Source: Chryseobacterium sp. MYb264 (GTDB lineage: Bacteria > Bacteroidota > Bacteroidia > Flavobacteriales > Weeksellaceae). From it: DNA of 64,000 nucleotides. The notes under the pieces were generated by a model, which was not told the DNA's origin, did no database searches, and worked only from the letters and a program-made list of their open reading frames with translations. Both the position numbers and the translations under genes were made by a program. The DNA is taken from NCBI RefSeq assembly GCF_035974275.1, contig NZ_CP142422.1, positions 682,001-746,000 on the forward strand, written 5' to 3'. Of the stretch, positions 34,901-42,328 are shown in pieces. The number at the start of each line of letters is the position of its first letter. Positions within the stretch are counted from its first letter, which is position 1.

Positions 34901-35527
34901 ATGAAGGTAATAGATTTAGAAAACTGGAACAGAAAGGAGCATTTTGAATTTTTCTCTAAAATGAAAAGTCCTTATTTCGGTTTTACAACGGAGGTGGACT
35001 GCACAATAGCGTATGAAAAAGCAAAAGAAAGCGGTAAGTCGTTTTTTGCCTATTATCTTCACAAATCAATGATCGCGATAAATTCTGTGGAAGAATTGAG
35101 ATTGAGAATGGTTGACGATCAAATTATTTTGTTTGATGAAGTGCATTGCGGAAGTACGATTGGAAGGGAAGACGGCACTTTTGGCTTTTCTTTTTTTCAT
35201 TATTCGGAAAATTTTGAAACTTTTAATGAAGGATTACAAAATCAGATAAAAATTGTGCAAAATTCAACAGGTTTGGGAATTAGCAATGATGTTTTACCTA
35301 TTAATCATATCAGACACACGACCATTCCCTGGAGTTCGTTTACCACAGTTTTACATCCAACTAATTTTGATCCTAAAGAATGTATTCCGAAAATTGCATT
35401 TGGGAAATTCACGGTTAAAGATGGTAAAAAGATGATGCCGGTTTCCATTGAAGCACATCACGGTTTGGCAGATGGATTACATTTGGCGAAATATTTTGAA
35501 GCTTTTCAGAGAGAATTAGATAAATAA
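34901..35527 (+). CDS. Chloramphenicol acetyltransferase-like protein
   Basis: The product is 208 residues, close to the usual length of trimeric CATs. The catalytic segment is EAHHGLADGLHLAKYFE (HH at 186-187, D191), and FTTEVDCT plus FFAYYLHKSM match the N-terminal fold. These enzymes acetylate chloramphenicol with acetyl-CoA, although distant members act on other alcohols. It lies 95 bases after the AraC gene and ends at a small hairpin before the defence-like operon. Whether it confers resistance is uncertain. Confidence 0.85.
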   Translation: MKVIDLENWNRKEHFEFFSKMKSPYFGFTTEVDCTIAYEKAKESGKSFFAYYLHKSMIAINSVEELRLRMVDDQIILFDEVHCGSTIGREDGTFGFSFFHYSENFETFNEGLQNQIKIVQNSTGLGISNDVLPINHIRHTTIPWSSFTTVLHPTNFDPKECIPKIAFGKFTVKDGKKMMPVSIEAHHGLADGLHLAKYFEAFQRELDK

Positions 35528-35533
35528 TTCAAT

Positions 35534-35556
35534 TTACGGGAAGCCGTAACGAATAT
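35534..35556 (+). terminator. Small hairpin terminator after the acetyltransferase gene
   Basis: TTACGG, loop GAAG and CCGTAA, followed a few bases later by ATTTTTTG. It would separate this gene from the three-gene operon at 35657. Confidence 0.5.
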
Positions 35557-35656
35557 TTTTTGTTAATGAATAAATTTGAGTAATTATATTGTTATATTAG
35601 ATCTTTGAATTGATTTCAAATAGAACTAATAACCCATTACTCAATTTTATTTTAAG

Positions 35657-38077
35657 ATGACTACTTTCGAAAATTCGGATTTACAGATCGTTACTACTAA
35701 AGCAAGGGCAGATAAGGCCATTAATTCTTTAAAAGGTCTTTTGTTAGGGATTATTTCAGATGATATTATTGATGCTAAAGAAATGCGTGAGCTCAGATTA
35801 TGGGCTCAGGAGCATTATGATCTGGTCAATAGAAATCCGTTTCGTGAATTTATGCTTTTAATCGAAAATACGGCTTCAAATGAAATCCCTACAAAAGAAG
35901 CGGTAGAAGATTTATATTGGCTTTGTCAGAAATATGAGCATGATAGCATTTATTATAACGGGATTACCTCTGATTTACAACTTTTACAGGGTATTTTCCA
36001 TGGAATTCTGGCGGACGGTATTTTAAGTGACGAAGAAATTTTTAAACTTGATGCGTGGCTTTCTGAGAATAAACATCTAAGTTCATATTATCCCTACGAT
36101 GAAATACGAAGCTTGGTTTCGTCCGTTGTAGAAGACGGAATTATTACAGAAGAAGAAAGGGCAGTTCTCACTGCTTTTATTAAACAGTTTGTTGAAATAA
36201 AGAACAAGGAAGTTGCCGATAAAATTGAAAGAGATACAATTAATATCAATATTTCAGGTATTTGTGCTCAAAATCGAGAAATTATTTTTACAAATAAAAC
36301 GTTCTGTATCACTGGTATTTTAAACAGAGGTTCACGAACAGAACTTCAGAAAGCCATACAGGATCAGGGAGGAATTTCTGTAAATTCTATTTCAAAAAAG
36401 ACCGATTATTTGATCATAGGCTCGACTAATAATGCTTGTTGGACCTATTCCTGTTATGGGAGAAAAGTTGAAAAAGCTTTAGAATTAAGAAAATCGGGAC
36501 ACACGATTATCTTGATCCATGAGTCTGATATTTTTAATAATCTTGACGGAAATCATGATATAAAAAATTCATTTCAACAGAAAAATGACATTCCGGTACA
36601 GAGCAGCTTGTCCGTAACGATGCATAATGATTCAGTTACTGATGTATCAGGTCATGAAGATATTGCCATTAATTTTTGTTCTGATTTTTCAAAAAATGAA
36701 TCTGTTTCAGCAGATAATAAGGAGAGTAATATAGTACCTCTCCAAGAGGCTAAAATCGGAAAGAGATATTCCCGGAAATTAAATCTCAATGAAAATCAGG
36801 AGGAGCTTCTGAACCAACTTTCGTTTGATAATAATGCCTTTAATGAAATTGATTATTGTAAAGTTCAAATTTTAAAGCAATTTTTAAGGTCTATAGAATT
36901 TCTGAATACTCATTGTATTCCGGTCAATAAATCGTATTCTTCGGTTATTGATGAATTATCTGAAATTATTATCTATCTGCAGTACAATTATAAACCGGAA
37001 AGTCTTAATTATAAATATACTTACGATTCTATTCGGGCTGAAATTTTAAATCATATCATAAAATTATGCGAAAATAACGTCCGCGAATTTTATGGCATTA
37101 AAAGAAAAATCAGCGAAGATTTCACATATAGTCATCCCGATATTCTTATTAAATACAATAAAAAAATAATTTCAAAACTTCAGGATTTTTTAGTAGACCA
37201 TCAACATCAGATTTTAGATGCAGATTACAAAACAAATATTATTCTGAATGAAAACAATACCAATCGCTGGAAAACGAAATTTGAAATCATTAAAGAAGAT
37301 TATTCCAATTCTTTAGCTTTTGAACGTGAAATTTTCAGGCTAACGGATGTGAATATTAAAAATCCTTCTGTTGATAATATCTTTTTTGAAGCATCAAAAT
37401 TTATTGCTGGATATGATAAAACCTGTGCATTGCGACTTTATATTCATTATTTGGATAAAGATTTAAATTCTCAAACATTTGATAAAAAACAGCTTACTAA
37501 AACGATTCAGAAAAGTTTGTTTTCAACCTCTGAGCAATTTAATGATTTCGAAAAAATAGTAAGTGATTTTGTTGTTAGTAGAGATATCGAAACAGCCATC
37601 GGGAAAGTTAATTTATTATATACGCCCAAAAGAAAAAAAATATTTATTGACACAAACGCCGTTGAAAATGTTCAGCGGCTGGATTCAGAAATTGCTAAGA
37701 AACTAGGAGATATTCTTAATGAAGAGTATGAAGACGAAAATACTTCTGCTAAGACAGAAGAAGCTTTACATAAAGAAGAGTTAACCATTAGCATAACAAA
37801 TAAAGATTCTGAACCCGAAATTTCAAAATATCTTGAAGAATTAAATTTTACAGAAATTCAATGTGAAATTTTAACGAGGTTCGAAAAACACAGTTTTACC
37901 ATTTTTCAAAATGATCTTAAAGATTTTATTCAATCTAAAAATCTTTTCATGGGTTCAGCAATAGATTCAATAAACGAGGTTTGTTACGAAATTCTTGACG
38001 ATGTTTTGATTGAAGAAGAAGATGAATATTTTACCATTAATACAGATTATTATAAAAAACTTTTAAACAATGATTGA
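35657..38077 (+). CDS. sngA: TerB-like / BRCT / TerB-C protein, SngA-like component of a Shango-type defence operon
   Basis: This 806-residue cytoplasmic protein has several parts. Residues about 24-178 hold three acidic TerB-like helical repeats (SDDIIDAKEMREL, ADGILSDEEIFKL, EDGIITEEERAVL). Residues about 207-295 are a BRCT domain of the DNA-ligase/RFC kind (FCITGILNRGSRTEL, QGGISVNSISKKTDYLIIG). A helical middle follows. The C-terminal 130 residues are TerB-C-like (IFIDTNAVENVQRLDSEIAKKL; MGSAIDSINEVCYEILDDVLIEE). Its stop overlaps the next start by 8 bases. A TerB protein with a BrxD-like ATPase and a helicase is the Shango anti-phage gene set as I recall it. The BRCT module is not part of what I remember for SngA. 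The defence role is inferred. Confidence 0.75.
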   Translation: MTTFENSDLQIVTTKARADKAINSLKGLLLGIISDDIIDAKEMRELRLWAQEHYDLVNRNPFREFMLLIENTASNEIPTKEAVEDLYWLCQKYEHDSIYYNGITSDLQLLQGIFHGILADGILSDEEIFKLDAWLSENKHLSSYYPYDEIRSLVSSVVEDGIITEEERAVLTAFIKQFVEIKNKEVADKIERDTININISGICAQNREIIFTNKTFCITGILNRGSRTELQKAIQDQGGISVNSISKKTDYLIIGSTNNACWTYSCYGRKVEKALELRKSGHTIILIHESDIFNNLDGNHDIKNSFQQKNDIPVQSSLSVTMHNDSVTDVSGHEDIAINFCSDFSKNESVSADNKESNIVPLQEAKIGKRYSRKLNLNENQEELLNQLSFDNNAFNEIDYCKVQILKQFLRSIEFLNTHCIPVNKSYSSVIDELSEIIIYLQYNYKPESLNYKYTYDSIRAEILNHIIKLCENNVREFYGIKRKISEDFTYSHPDILIKYNKKIISKLQDFLVDHQHQILDADYKTNIILNENNTNRWKTKFEIIKEDYSNSLAFEREIFRLTDVNIKNPSVDNIFFEASKFIAGYDKTCALRLYIHYLDKDLNSQTFDKKQLTKTIQKSLFSTSEQFNDFEKIVSDFVVSRDIETAIGKVNLLYTPKRKKIFIDTNAVENVQRLDSEIAKKLGDILNEEYEDENTSAKTEEALHKEELTISITNKDSEPEISKYLEELNFTEIQCEILTRFEKHSFTIFQNDLKDFIQSKNLFMGSAIDSINEVCYEILDDVLIEEEDEYFTINTDYYKKLLNND

Positions 38078-39386
38078 CAATATTAAACCTAAGGAAGCCA
38101 CATCTATTATCAATTCTCTTGTGAGCGGAGTTGTTCCTAAAATTGGTGTTCAGCATATCACCGTAGGCCGGTCGGAAGAAGTAAATGCTTCTATTTCAGC
38201 TTTGGAAGATGTGAAAAACGGGCATAGTTTAGTGAAATTCTGGATCGGAGATTTCGGAAGCGGAAAATCATTTATGCTTCATTTATTAAATACGGTGGCT
38301 TTAAAACAAAAATTTGTTGTTGCGAACGCAGATTTCACACCGGACAACAGATTGTATTCAAACGACGGAAAGGCGGTGATTCTGTATACTGCAATCATGG
38401 ATAATATCGCAATCCAGACCAAACCGGAAGGTGGTGCTTTGCAGACTTTGCTCGAAAAATGGATTGAACAGGTGATTGCAAAAACTGCAGAAGCGAATAC
38501 TATTTCGCTGGCTGATATCAGGAATGAACAGTATTTGGAAATTATTCAAAACTCAATCATGAAAACAGTTAATGAAATCACAGAAGTTGGCGGATTTGAC
38601 TTTGGTTCTGTGATTGTAAAATATTATGAGGGATATATTAAAAATGATGAGTTATTACGGAGAAATGCTCTGAAATGGCTAAAAGGAGAATATACTACAA
38701 AAACAGAAGCAAGGCAGGATCTGGGAGTTCGTGAGATCATTAACGATTCAAATTATTATGATATGCTGAAGAATTTCTGTAAGTTTTTCGTGAGTATGGG
38801 ATATAGCGGTTTCATGATCAATCTGGATGAAGCAATCAATCTTTATAAGATTTCAACGGCTGCGGCACGCGAAAAAAACTATGAAAAAATACTTTCTATT
38901 TATAATGACTGTTTTCAGGGGAAAATTTCAAATCTCTTTATCAATTTTGCAGGAACAGAAGAGTTTTTAGAGAACGAAAGAAGAGGATTATTCAGTTATC
39001 AGGCTCTAAAATCGAGATTGGAAACAAATAAATTTGAAACACTTGAAATCAGAGATTTTGCCCAACCGGTCATCAAATTAACGCCTTTAAATCATAATGA
39101 GATCTTTGTCTTACTTAAAAAACTGAAATTTATTTTTGATTGTAATTATAAAACGGATCTTGATATTTCAGATGAAGAAATCTCGTCTTTCATGGAGGAA
39201 ATCTTTAATAAACCGGGAGCTTCAGAGTTTTTAACTCCTAGGGAAGTGATTCGTGACTTCCTGAATATTCTAAATATTATCAGACAGAATCCGGATGTTG
39301 ATAAAAAAAGACTGTTCGGCGAAATTGAAATTGAGGATGAAAGACCGAATGATGCTGCCTTCATTAATACGATTGAAGAAATATGA
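38070..39386 (+). CDS. sngB: BrxD/DUF2791-type ATP-binding protein, SngB-like
   Basis: The 438-residue P-loop ATPase has Walker A GDFGSGKSF with K66 and Walker B GFMINLDEA with D253-E254. FAGTEEFLENERRGLFSYQALKSRL and the late TPREVIRDFLNIL are hallmarks of the DUF2791/BREX BrxD-like family. Such ATPases act with helicases in BREX and related phage-defence systems. It overlaps the upstream gene by 8 bases and the helicase by 4 (ATGA), so the three proteins are translationally coupled. No other BREX genes (methylase, BrxC, PglZ) are present, so this is not a BREX locus. Confidence 0.88.
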   Translation: MIDNIKPKEATSIINSLVSGVVPKIGVQHITVGRSEEVNASISALEDVKNGHSLVKFWIGDFGSGKSFMLHLLNTVALKQKFVVANADFTPDNRLYSNDGKAVILYTAIMDNIAIQTKPEGGALQTLLEKWIEQVIAKTAEANTISLADIRNEQYLEIIQNSIMKTVNEITEVGGFDFGSVIVKYYEGYIKNDELLRRNALKWLKGEYTTKTEARQDLGVREIINDSNYYDMLKNFCKFFVSMGYSGFMINLDEAINLYKISTAAAREKNYEKILSIYNDCFQGKISNLFINFAGTEEFLENERRGLFSYQALKSRLETNKFETLEIRDFAQPVIKLTPLNHNEIFVLLKKLKFIFDCNYKTDLDISDEEISSFMEEIFNKPGASEFLTPREVIRDFLNILNIIRQNPDVDKKRLFGEIEIEDERPNDAAFINTIEEI

Positions 39387-41524
39387 TACAGCAGTCATTT
39401 GATATGCTCTCACCACCGATCAGGAAATATATTTATGAGAAGGGTTGGGGGAGTTTAAGACCCATTCAGGATGCGGCGATAAAAAGAATTATCCCCACAG
39501 ACAATAACTACGTTTTAATATCAAGAACAGCTTCAGGCAAAACTGAGGCTGCTTTCTTGCCTATTTTATCAAAAGTGAATTTTAAAGAGCAAGGGGTAAA
39601 AGTTCTTTATATTTCACCTTTAATTGCATTGATTAATGATCAGTTTTTAAGGGTTGAAAAGCTTTGTGAATATTTAGATGTTCCGGTTACCAAATGGCAC
39701 GGAGAAGCTTCGAAAGGAGCAAAAGACAGACTAGTAAAAAATCCTGAAGGCATTGTTCTCATTACTCCCGAATCCATAGAGGCGATGTTCGTGAACAAAC
39801 CCTATTATATTCGCCATCTGTTCTCAAATTTAGAATATATTGTTATTGACGAAATTCATTCTTTTTTAGGTTCGGATCGTGGAATTCAATTACAATCTTT
39901 ATTAAACCGTTTACAGAGAATCAATAATAAAAAATTCAGTATTGTGGGTTTATCTGCTACAGTAAGTGATGTAAACCAATATGTTGAGCTAAAAGAGTTT
40001 TTAGGGAATTCTGAAAATACTAAAATTATTCGTGATACTACACCCAAGCCAATCAATGCTGTTTTTAAGTATTTCGAGACGAGTACAAGTGAATTACCTT
40101 CTCTGTTATTAGACGATATATACAGCCGAACTAGAGACCGTAAAACCTTAATTTTTCCTAATGCCAGAGGTCGCGTGGAAGAAGTTGCTGTAAAGCTTAA
40201 AAAAACAGCGAATAGACTGGGCGGGCATACGAATTATTTTTCGCATCATTCGTCCGTTGATAAGGAAGTTCGCGAATATGTGGAACTTTTTGCTAAAAAC
40301 AGTACTGGTCAAAACTTCTGCATTTCCTGTACTTCCACTTTAGAGCTGGGAATTGATATAGGAAACGTAGACGAAGTAGTTCAGATTGATGCAACGCACA
40401 GTATTGCTTCGTTAATTCAAAGAGTGGGGCGAAGTGGTCGGCGTGAGGGGAAATCCAGCAATCTTTTTCTGTATGCAACAGATCCTTGGAGTCTGCTACA
40501 ATCGTTGGCATGCTGGCTATTATATAAAGAGCAATATATTGAGCCTATTTCTGTGAATAAAAAACCATATGATATTTTGGTTCATCAGATTTTATCAGTT
40601 GTTAAAGGGAGTTCCGGTATATCATTGAGTGAGCTTACAGAGCAATTTACTTCAAATTCTACATTTTCAGATATTGAATATGAAGTGATAATTGAAATTA
40701 TCAACCATCTGACTGCAATTGATTTCTTAGAAAAACTAGGAAATGAATATATTGTTGGAATTGAAGGCGAAAAACTGGTAAATACCAAAGATTTTTATAT
40801 TCTTTTCAAAACAGAAATACTATTTAAAGTTTCTAATCAAGGGGTGAAAATAGGCGAGTTGCCTTTGTCTCCTAAAATTGATATTGATGAAAATATTTAC
40901 CTTTCTGCTAAAATATGGAAAATTAAAAATATTGACTTTGATACAAAAAAGATTGAAGTAATTCCTGCTTATGATGGGGATAAGCCTCTTTTTGATAGTG
41001 AGGGTGGTTTAGTTTCTTCTAAAATAAAAGAGAAGATGCTTGAGATTCTGACTTCTGATGAAAAATATGATTTATTGGACAGCAATGGACAATTATGTAT
41101 TTCTGATTTACAAAGTGATTTCGTTGGTTTCAGTATAGTAGATAGTATGACAGACAGGCCTTTACGGTCAAGTAATGAGAATCTATTTTTTTATCCTTTT
41201 ATCGGTTCTAAAATTGTTGAGACATTAAAATTTGTATTTGAGAAAGCAAATATCTCTTTTGATTATTATCCACTTAATGATGAATTTAAAATGAAAATGT
41301 TGAGTTCTGAATTTATTGCACGAGTTAAAAATATTGATTTTAAAATCCTAGATACTAATGAATATTTGCATCAGTTAATAAAAACGAGTCCTGAAATTCT
41401 TGATTTTTCAAAATGGGGGAAATTCCTTCCCATACAATATCAGATAGAACTACTCAAAAACAATTATTACGATTTTGAAGGCTGTCAGCATTTTCTTCAA
41501 AATTTAAATTTTATTGAAAATTAA
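39383..41524 (+). CDS. sngC: DEAD/DEAH-box helicase, Lhr-like, SngC-like
   Basis: The 713-residue SF2 helicase shows the Q-motif area RPIQDAAI, motif I RTASGKTEAA (K53), motif II DEIH at 156-159, motif III LSATVSD and motif VI QRVGRSGRREG at 346-356. HHSSVDKEVRE and CTSTLELGIDIG resemble Lhr and Hrq1-like helicases. The C-terminal half, about 370-713, has no motif I can name and is notably rich in Lys, Ile and Asn. It is shorter than the repair-cluster Lhr enzyme at 14618 and distinct from it. It ends the operon before a strong terminator. Confidence 0.87.
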   Translation: MIQQSFDMLSPPIRKYIYEKGWGSLRPIQDAAIKRIIPTDNNYVLISRTASGKTEAAFLPILSKVNFKEQGVKVLYISPLIALINDQFLRVEKLCEYLDVPVTKWHGEASKGAKDRLVKNPEGIVLITPESIEAMFVNKPYYIRHLFSNLEYIVIDEIHSFLGSDRGIQLQSLLNRLQRINNKKFSIVGLSATVSDVNQYVELKEFLGNSENTKIIRDTTPKPINAVFKYFETSTSELPSLLLDDIYSRTRDRKTLIFPNARGRVEEVAVKLKKTANRLGGHTNYFSHHSSVDKEVREYVELFAKNSTGQNFCISCTSTLELGIDIGNVDEVVQIDATHSIASLIQRVGRSGRREGKSSNLFLYATDPWSLLQSLACWLLYKEQYIEPISVNKKPYDILVHQILSVVKGSSGISLSELTEQFTSNSTFSDIEYEVIIEIINHLTAIDFLEKLGNEYIVGIEGEKLVNTKDFYILFKTEILFKVSNQGVKIGELPLSPKIDIDENIYLSAKIWKIKNIDFDTKKIEVIPAYDGDKPLFDSEGGLVSSKIKEKMLEILTSDEKYDLLDSNGQLCISDLQSDFVGFSIVDSMTDRPLRSSNENLFFYPFIGSKIVETLKFVFEKANISFDYYPLNDEFKMKMLSSEFIARVKNIDFKILDTNEYLHQLIKTSPEILDFSKWGKFLPIQYQIELLKNNYYDFEGCQHFLQNLNFIEN

Positions 41525-41578: not shown

Positions 41579-42328
41579 CTACCAGTTGCTCAATCCGTTC
41601 TCAAGTGCTTTAGCATAATTATCTTCATCAAATGAATACAGATCCGGAGCTTTATGCGCGCCACCGGTTCTTCTTTCATCCAGCTTTTTTAAAATTCCTA
41701 GATTTTTAATTTTTCTATAAAAATTTCCTCTGTTAAGCTCTTTTCCGAGAATAACTTCGTATAATTTTTGCAGCTCAGAAAGGGTAAATTTTTCGGGTAA
41801 TAAATTAAATCCGATAGGTTTATGCGAGATTTTCTCTCTTAAAGTTAATAGAGCTTTTTCGATGATTTCACGGTGATCCATTGCCAATTCGATGTTGGGC
41901 AACTCACTTAAATAGATCCATTCACAGCTTTCACTGAATTCATCACGAATCAGATTAAAGCGATCAGGATTGTAAAGAGCATAAAATCCAATGGTTACAA
42001 ATCTTTGTTTATGGAAAAGAGTTTCATCAAAATCTTCGAAATAAAATTCACTTCTATTTTTCTTCCCGAACACCGCAAATTGCTCAAGATATACTTCCGT
42101 CACTCCGGCGCGGTCTTTTAGAATTCTCATAACGGCATCATCGAGGTCTTCATCCTTTCTGACATATCCGCCAGGCAGAAACCACTGCTTTCTGTAATTC
42201 ATTTTCAGCAGTAAAACTTTTAGTTCGTTTTGATCAAAACCAAAAATAACAGGATCGGCTGACAGGTGAGGAATAAAAATTTCCTTTGCCTCAATTGATT
42301 TTTTTAAAAATTGCTCTTTAGAATCCAT
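41579..42328 (-). CDS. NrtR/AraR-like transcriptional regulator with degenerate Nudix domain
   Basis: The 249-residue protein has a Nudix domain at about 20-150 and a C-terminal winged helix-turn-helix at about 165-240 (FTLSELQKLYEVILGKELNRGNFYRKIKNLGILKK; ERRTGGAHKAPDLYSFD). The Nudix box starts G54 with E60 and R68, but the catalytic RE-x-x-EE is changed to R-I-L-K-D-R at 68-73. Hydrolysis is therefore unlikely, and the domain probably binds a ligand, as in NrtR and the Bacteroides arabinose regulator AraR. It diverges from the glycan-use locus starting at 42906 and is the likely controller of it. The ligand is unknown. Confidence 0.87.
   Translation of the reverse strand: MDSKEQFLKKSIEAKEIFIPHLSADPVIFGFDQNELKVLLLKMNYRKQWFLPGGYVRKDEDLDDAVMRILKDRAGVTEVYLEQFAVFGKKNRSEFYFEDFDETLFHKQRFVTIGFYALYNPDRFNLIRDEFSESCEWIYLSELPNIELAMDHREIIEKALLTLREKISHKPIGFNLLPEKFTLSELQKLYEVILGKELNRGNFYRKIKNLGILKKLDERRTGGAHKAPDLYSFDEDNYAKALENGLSNW

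Follow-up and report, generated by a model that had tools for sequence, protein, structure and literature searches.

A Shango operon of Chryseobacterium with a TerB-like-BRCT module fused to SngA and a palindrome at its promoter

Shango has been described in P. aeruginosa and E. coli as a defence system comprised of genes for a TerB-type protein, an ATPase and a helicase, as set out in the accessible part of the source (PMC10250203). A description of how it recognises infection was not found in the open-licence literature searched, as far as that literature was accessible, and the term BRCT is absent from the main text of the Shango paper according to a term search (PMC10250203). A related ATPase and SF2 helicase occur together as the BrxD-BrxHI pair of type 2 BREX, where a helicase-loading role has been suggested for BrxD with BrxHI in the portion of the report available (PMC12839542). 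Two further points of comparison are the prophage family PHROG 3989, which is listed without function, and the PADLOC candidate PDC-S48, which is of the DEDDh exonuclease type.

The stretch of DNA analysed here, 64,000 nucleotides in full and referred to as the window, contains three co-directional forward-strand ORFs that overlap by 8 and 4 bp, exactly as the initial annotation had claimed (Table 1). Its proposal that they constitute a Shango system is borne out by PADLOC, whose profiles match all three proteins. The described Shango and the window thus have in common the genes for a TerB-type protein, an ATPase and a helicase, and differ in that the window SngA bears an N-terminal TerB-like-BRCT module. 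The assignment of SngC as an SF2 helicase likewise holds, with matches to Pfam DEAD (8.2e-35) and Helicase_C (1.6e-16), and, by search expressions, the motifs ASGKT at 50, DEIH at 156, SAT at 191 and QRVGRSGR at 346, from which activity is predicted. SngB was recovered as a BrxC_BrxD/DUF2791 protein (Pfam 3.8e-145) with a Walker A motif (GDFGSGKS from residue 60), and of the Walker motifs said to be intact the second is a reading by eye of GFMINLDEA, the Walker B search expression giving no match in SngB. The TerB character ascribed to SngA applies at its C-terminus, where TerB_C is found (Pfam 1.2e-19), and is weak at its N-terminus, where Pfam TerB reaches E=0.21 on residues 1-190, below the curated cut-off; among the 45 rows of a module alignment, hand-picked from several homologue searches, 24 reach E<=1 and the best 0.013.

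Table 1. Features of the Shango locus and its flanks, in window coordinates
Feature	Coordinates	Strand	Evidence or remarks
CAT-like acetyltransferase gene, site marker outside the system	34901..35527	+	Pfam CAT 8.6e-30
Palindrome TTACGGGAAGCCGTAA, candidate operator	35534..35549	+	Sole match in window; 0 in 100 shuffles
TAAATTTG, Bacteroidota-type -7 element (TAnnTTTG)	35571..35578	+	37 bp downstream of palindrome start
sngA, fused form, 806 aa	35657..38077	+	PADLOC SngA 5.2e-31 over residues 369-804; Pfam TerB_C 655-802 and BRCT 207-266
N-terminal TerB-like-BRCT module of SngA, residues 1-294	35657..36538	+	PHROG 3989 1.9e-71; stand-alone homologues
BRCT domain, about residues 207-290, with T219, G220, R227, R269 and K270	36275..36526	+	
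Linker, residues 301-363, probably disordered	36557..36745	+	pLDDT <50 in full-length SngA model
SngA core with TerB_C, residues 369-806	36761..38074	+	PADLOC, Pfam
sngB, BrxC/D-type AAA+ ATPase, 438 aa	38070..39386	+	PADLOC SngB 7.7e-166; Walker A
sngC, SF2 helicase, 713 aa	39383..41524	+	PADLOC SngC 4.4e-205; helicase motifs
NrtR-type Nudix regulator gene, site marker	41579..42328	-	Pfam NrtR_WHD 2.4e-25; same flanks in locus L007

Judged from these profiles, the three genes, in the order sngA-sngB-sngC, are a genuine Shango operon. The chromosome is Chryseobacterium-like, a one-contig genome of 5.23 Mb with one SngB, of which the window covers positions 682001-746000; the closest named SngB loci are those of Chryseobacterium. 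For comparison, 80 SngB loci were taken, the best 80 of 129 confirmed; an ORF for the SngA core adjoins SngB in all 80 and a SngC ORF of more than 600 aa is present in 77, and because the trio recurs in this way its arrangement is not due to chance. In one locus of the set, on a Limnohabitans MAG contig, about 2 kb separate sngB from sngC (L048:7314-9346). That the operon might instead be a partial remnant of type 2 BREX was considered and rejected as extremely improbable: SngB and SngC are indeed related to BrxD and BrxHI, but the Shango profiles score far higher (7.7e-166 against 1.1e-43 for BrxD; 4.4e-205 against 4.6e-128 for BrxHI), a SngA with TerB_C is present, and the trio is found again in related genomes; profile scans in the window covered the operon and its two flanking genes. 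The suggestion of a divergent flavobacterial form fares less well, since the profile matches of SngB and SngC are almost full length; SngA alone is unusual, on account of its extra TerB-like-BRCT module.

The PADLOC match of SngA spans profile positions 191-525 of 528 and leaves positions 1-190 unmatched, and the BRCT domain that lies before the core (Pfam 4.2e-11) had been overlooked in the initial annotation. Residues 1-294, a helical and weakly TerB-like part followed by the BRCT, are on the evidence of homology a separate module fused onto a Shango core. The boundaries of the module follow from its match to PHROG 3989 (residues 10-292 against profile positions 6-288 of 296), from its stand-alone homologue upstream of sngA in other loci, and from the low-confidence linker in the full-length SngA model (mean pLDDT 77.8, pTM 0.44). 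The module shares 79-83% identity with the separate genes that precede sngA in L003-L006, L009, L011 and L012, and the core shares 63-71% with the 487-500-aa SngA proteins of L002-L012. Among the 120 matches listed of 167, full-length SngA homologues number five (P0002-P0006, 71-75% identity), all of them fused, and many shorter proteins match the C-terminal 60% of SngA only. The window SngA also matches PDC-S48 weakly (1.4e-6), and a weak match to the GapS2 profile (0.0013) was recorded. The length of the region before the core varies greatly among loci, with SngA proteins of 1211 aa in L035, 1031 aa in L047 and 865 aa in L080.

In 20 of the 80 loci a separate gene of about 300 aa, lying immediately before sngA on the same strand at gaps of -41 to 75 bp, encodes a close homologue of the module. 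Distant homologues occupy this position in L076 (at 112 bp; a DEDDh exonuclease-BRCT protein) and L078 (at 102 bp), and upstream of sngA in the other 58 loci no module homologue was found. In L079 and L081 a distant homologue of 216 aa lies on the opposite strand, beyond sngC, and remnants of a module gene are detectable upstream of sngA in L010 (E 1e-13), L023 (6e-7), L058 (2e-19) and, weakly, L008 (0.005). On a SngC tree of 78 rows, comprised of the window and 77 of the 80 loci (L032, L062 and L071 were dropped, having no long SngC ORF) and with L076 and L078 scored as lacking the module, module presence needs 11 changes, at least 9 of them on well-supported branches; the module has thus been gained or lost repeatedly. 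A module tree of 51 rows, into which 18 of the 49 viral homologues were taken, places the six fused forms in one clade (100/99) inside the Shango-adjacent genes of Chryseobacterium (98/87). The module is also fused behind SngC, in P0114 (57% identical to the window SngC over 709 columns) and in P0110, a shorter piece, and it follows a DEDDh exonuclease in P0115, which matches PDC-S48 at 2.6e-24; the window SngA has the same module as P0115 but is without an exonuclease domain. The stand-alone module gene is under purifying selection in the two pairs compared, with dN/dS of 0.06 and 0.08 against 0.15 and 0.17 for SngA of the same pairs. An extra gene of about 313 aa stands just before sngA in two Flavobacterium Shango operons (L075:410-2079; L073:2892-3839); in L075 it is preceded by a gene of 243 aa and the palindrome of Table 1, neither gene has a Pfam match, and the 313-aa product has a weak PADLOC match to RT_UG19.

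Within the genus, the module was found in 13 of 173 genomes and SngB in 45 of 173; all 13 also have SngB, with the module no more than 3.3 kb from sngB in each (Fisher 6e-9, kinship ignored), and it is absent from the other 32 Shango-bearing genomes. An order-wide sample gave the module in 4 and SngB in 9 of 296 genomes, with 3 shared, and family f3 gave 3 of 299 for each with an overlap of 0; these counts, with those of the 173 genomes, indicate that module and Shango are associated within the genus, the module being neither required by Shango nor exclusive to it. In family f7 the module was found in 1 of 88 genomes and SngB in 0 of 88, the SngB profile having matched no control there either. 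The module is hence, as far as genome content can tell, dispensable and not exclusive to Shango, and the idea of an exclusive fourth Shango gene was rejected on the separate genomes that carry module and SngB in f3 and on the viral contigs with no Shango nearby. Among the four module-bearing genomes without SngB, neighbouring genes encode, in L122, a DUF3584 SMC protein that matches JetC weakly and, in L121, a TOPRIM ATPase of the OLD type, and the module neighbourhoods of L112 and L123 hold no recognised defence system.

The viral relatives were found by sequence patterns, one of them containing CYGRKVE, and place the module on 49 viral contigs, in the examined stretches of which no Shango ORF was found. 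PHROG 3989 corresponds to the whole module; its phage forms were seen as stand-alone proteins except in L170, whereas the window form is fused to SngA. In 10 of 14 viral neighbourhoods read by eye the module lies beside genes for cI-like HTH proteins, M78-type peptidases or recombinases, neighbours that suggest a lysogeny region; the M78 peptidase of L133 was confirmed by Pfam. A distant relative, with 30% identity to the prophage homologue L133, is encoded by the Vibrio phages K139 and kappa and bears the name 'BRCT domain-containing protein' in some records. On the viral contig L170 (701-2281) a HIRAN-like stretch, at 6.9e-5 just under the Pfam cut-off, is fused before the TerB-like-BRCT module.

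The chromosomal site of the operon recurs in related genomes. At least 29 of the 45 Shango-bearing genomes of the genus have the CAT-like gene within 6 kb of sngB, and L007 presents the same flanks without the module, in the order AraC-CAT-[Shango]-NrtR-SusC. In L003, L004, L006, L009 and L011 a separate module gene lies between the CAT-like gene and sngA, NrtR follows sngC at a distance of a few kb, and the window has the same flanks with the fused form. When 29 loci other than the window were checked, 16 had NrtR inside the 1.5-kb flank of the CAT-like gene, a proximity which implies that the site is empty of Shango in those loci.

The BRCT resembles the DNA-binding BRCT of RFC1 in that the fold, the TG motif and the basic residues of the phosphate pocket are present, and binding of 5'-phosphorylated DNA is predicted on this basis. 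Comparison of a stand-alone homologue with PDB sequences returned the BRCTs of RFC1 and DNA ligase as its only matches, and in PDB fold searches the rows listed were all filled by BRCT matches, RFC1 and LigA being among the top matches of the domain. Thr219 and Gly220 are present in 93 of 93 aligned homologues and Arg227 in 92 of 93. As reported in the accessible parts of two sources (PMC9293004, PMC9359705), the isolated RFC1 BRCT binds recessed 5'-phosphate DNA at ~10 nM, its TG motif touches a backbone phosphate, and full RFC displays no measurable 5'-phosphate preference in one cited study. A precedent for a BRCT in phage defence was not seen in the open-licence literature searched.

Upstream of the operon, the candidate operator is accompanied by a TAnnTTTG element, a motif which we take to be the Bacteroidota -7 consensus. 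The 5.23-Mb genome has 4 copies of the palindrome, where 0.19 would be expected given its base composition, and the reversed control has 0. Besides the window copy, there is one each before a gene for a PLD-type nuclease, a DO-GTPase operon and a gene for a 277-aa protein, with the element at 37 bp exact before the nuclease gene and with one mismatch each before the other two. A terminator of the CAT gene is disfavoured as the sole explanation of the palindrome, given that unrelated genes elsewhere also have this palindrome before them at this spacing, though L242 has it next to the CAT-like gene where Shango is absent. When the 80 loci were searched for the palindrome alone, a perfect copy upstream of Shango with TAnnTTTG at exactly 37 bp was found in 17 of the 30 from L002 to L031; the palindromes of L012, L013, L015 and L025 are imperfect with the spacing still 37 bp, those of L026 and L028 are without the element, and the Flavobacterium Shango operon of L075 has both. 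Over 24 palindrome sites (from the 80 loci, the three other genome sites and the window site), most of which are orthologous Shango promoters, the element stands at 37 bp in 20, and the only other offset within 16-75 bp is 27, seen twice. The pattern of TTACGGNNNNCCGTAA with TAnnTTTG at 37 bp occurs in 100 of 110 genomes of the genus (reversed control 0); the spacing is built into this pattern and was assessed separately by the palindrome-only searches. Rfam gave no match at gathering scores in the long leaders or the window (6 sources), nothing relevant was found among known motifs in the open-licence literature searched, and a factor binding the palindrome was not found in this analysis. In genome G298, which has no SngB, the palindrome-promoter stands beside the CAT-like gene (L242) and no ORF was found behind it.

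The genes behind this site were sampled at 90 sites in listing order among the matches listed, namely 30 loci and the next 60 rows, and 86 of the 90 have an ORF of at least 60 aa within 480 bp, in 42 clusters. Shango genes, or clusters with a PADLOC match in a member or homologue, account for 25 of the 86: Shango itself (6), type III methyltransferase (5), PLD/DrmC-like (3, weak), GajA-like (2), type II methyltransferases (2), and one each of PDC-S06, IetS, PDC-S59, a CBASS cyclase (3.7e-110), PDC-M62A, JetA (1.4e-213) and PDC-S02. HSDR_N proteins without a PADLOC match contribute 5 more, and two resemble, by eye, the first gene of the DO-GTPase operon. A pure defence regulon is argued against by DUF1508 (YegP) at 13 and YidD at 6 of the 86 sites, by the site in L242 with no ORF behind it, and by PADLOC, which was run on 20 of the 86 downstream proteins, hand-picked as informative-looking, and gave no match for 9. 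Several palindrome-site genes have leaders of about 300 nt. The pattern also occurs in 70 viral-contig stretches, where the downstream ORFs are mostly small and without assigned function; on the viral contigs L306, L318 and L350 the genes behind the palindrome-promoter are repressor-like and encode HTH proteins that look S24-like by eye.

We consider it somewhat probable that the locus is a Shango system with a tethered DNA-end sensor under a shared regulator. The BRCT would bind DNA ends, nicks or gaps (recessed 5'-phosphates), which phage DNA is expected to present when injected and when replicating, and would tether the SngA core at the bound DNA; the core would then recruit the SngB AAA+ ATPase. 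This ATPase would load SngC onto the DNA so marked, or drive the helicase there, and phage replication would be stopped as a result. The stand-alone module gene of relatives may be an optional fourth subunit with the same role, and transcription would be set by a putative factor on the palindrome, at its fixed distance from the promoter, that may also serve other defence operons. The recurrence of the module beside sngB in the genus, its fusions to SngA and SngC, the purifying selection on the stand-alone gene, the likeness of the BRCT to those of RFC1 and DNA ligase and the role suggested for BrxD speak for this reading. Against it stand the dispensability of the module, its occurrence apart from Shango, the binding of proteins or phosphopeptides by single BRCTs, the result for full RFC, the pTM of 0.44 of the full-length SngA model and the palindrome-promoter of L242.

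It is rather unlikely that the locus is instead an ordinary Shango and the module hitchhiking prophage cargo, with a small defence or DNA-damage function of its own, that arrived behind the same promoter, was fused by chance and plays no part in Shango. Such cargo could well be found alone on viral contigs near lysogeny-type genes, next to an SMC or an OLD-type ATPase in SngB-less Bacteroidota, and missing from most Shango loci with remnants that show loss, all of which are seen; it would less readily lie beside Shango in every module-bearing genome of the genus and directly upstream of sngA in a quarter of the loci, nor do the separate fusions to SngA and SngC and the purifying selection speak for it. 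A BRCT on its own may also have a protein or a phosphopeptide as its ligand. BRCTs are common protein-interaction modules according to the accessible part of a review (PMC10386641), and a further reading, which we regard as improbable, makes the BRCT a protein or phosphopeptide dock that keeps SngA, SngB and SngC, or a host repair protein, together, with SngB and SngC sensing the DNA. Fusions to different Shango subunits fit such an assembly role, but the restriction of PDB sequence matches to RFC1 and DNA ligase BRCTs, the retention of Arg227 and the lack of the module in most loci all weigh against it.

The tethered-sensor reading can be joined with the promoter data into a broader one, which is offered tentatively and is on balance doubtful: a DNA-end sensor of the PHROG 3989 type would be an exchangeable fourth subunit of Flavobacteriales Shango, repeatedly gained, fused and lost, and the operon would belong to a genus-wide TTACGGNNNNCCGTAA regulon. 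One factor on TTACGGNNNNCCGTAA, fixed 37 bp from the promoter, would jointly activate unrelated defence systems, the proposed members being Shango, CBASS, Wadjet-type JetA, type III modification, Gabija-like GajA, IetS and several candidates. What is added beyond the Shango call, with novelty judged from the accessible open-licence literature, is the exchangeable module in its fused form, together with the site at the promoter. A neighbour that recurs, becomes fused to Shango subunits and resembles a known DNA-binding domain offers a concrete sensor hypothesis, PHROG 3989, listed until now without function, gains its first functional link, and the palindrome shared at a fixed distance suggests that the chromosomal defence operons of the genus may be co-regulated.
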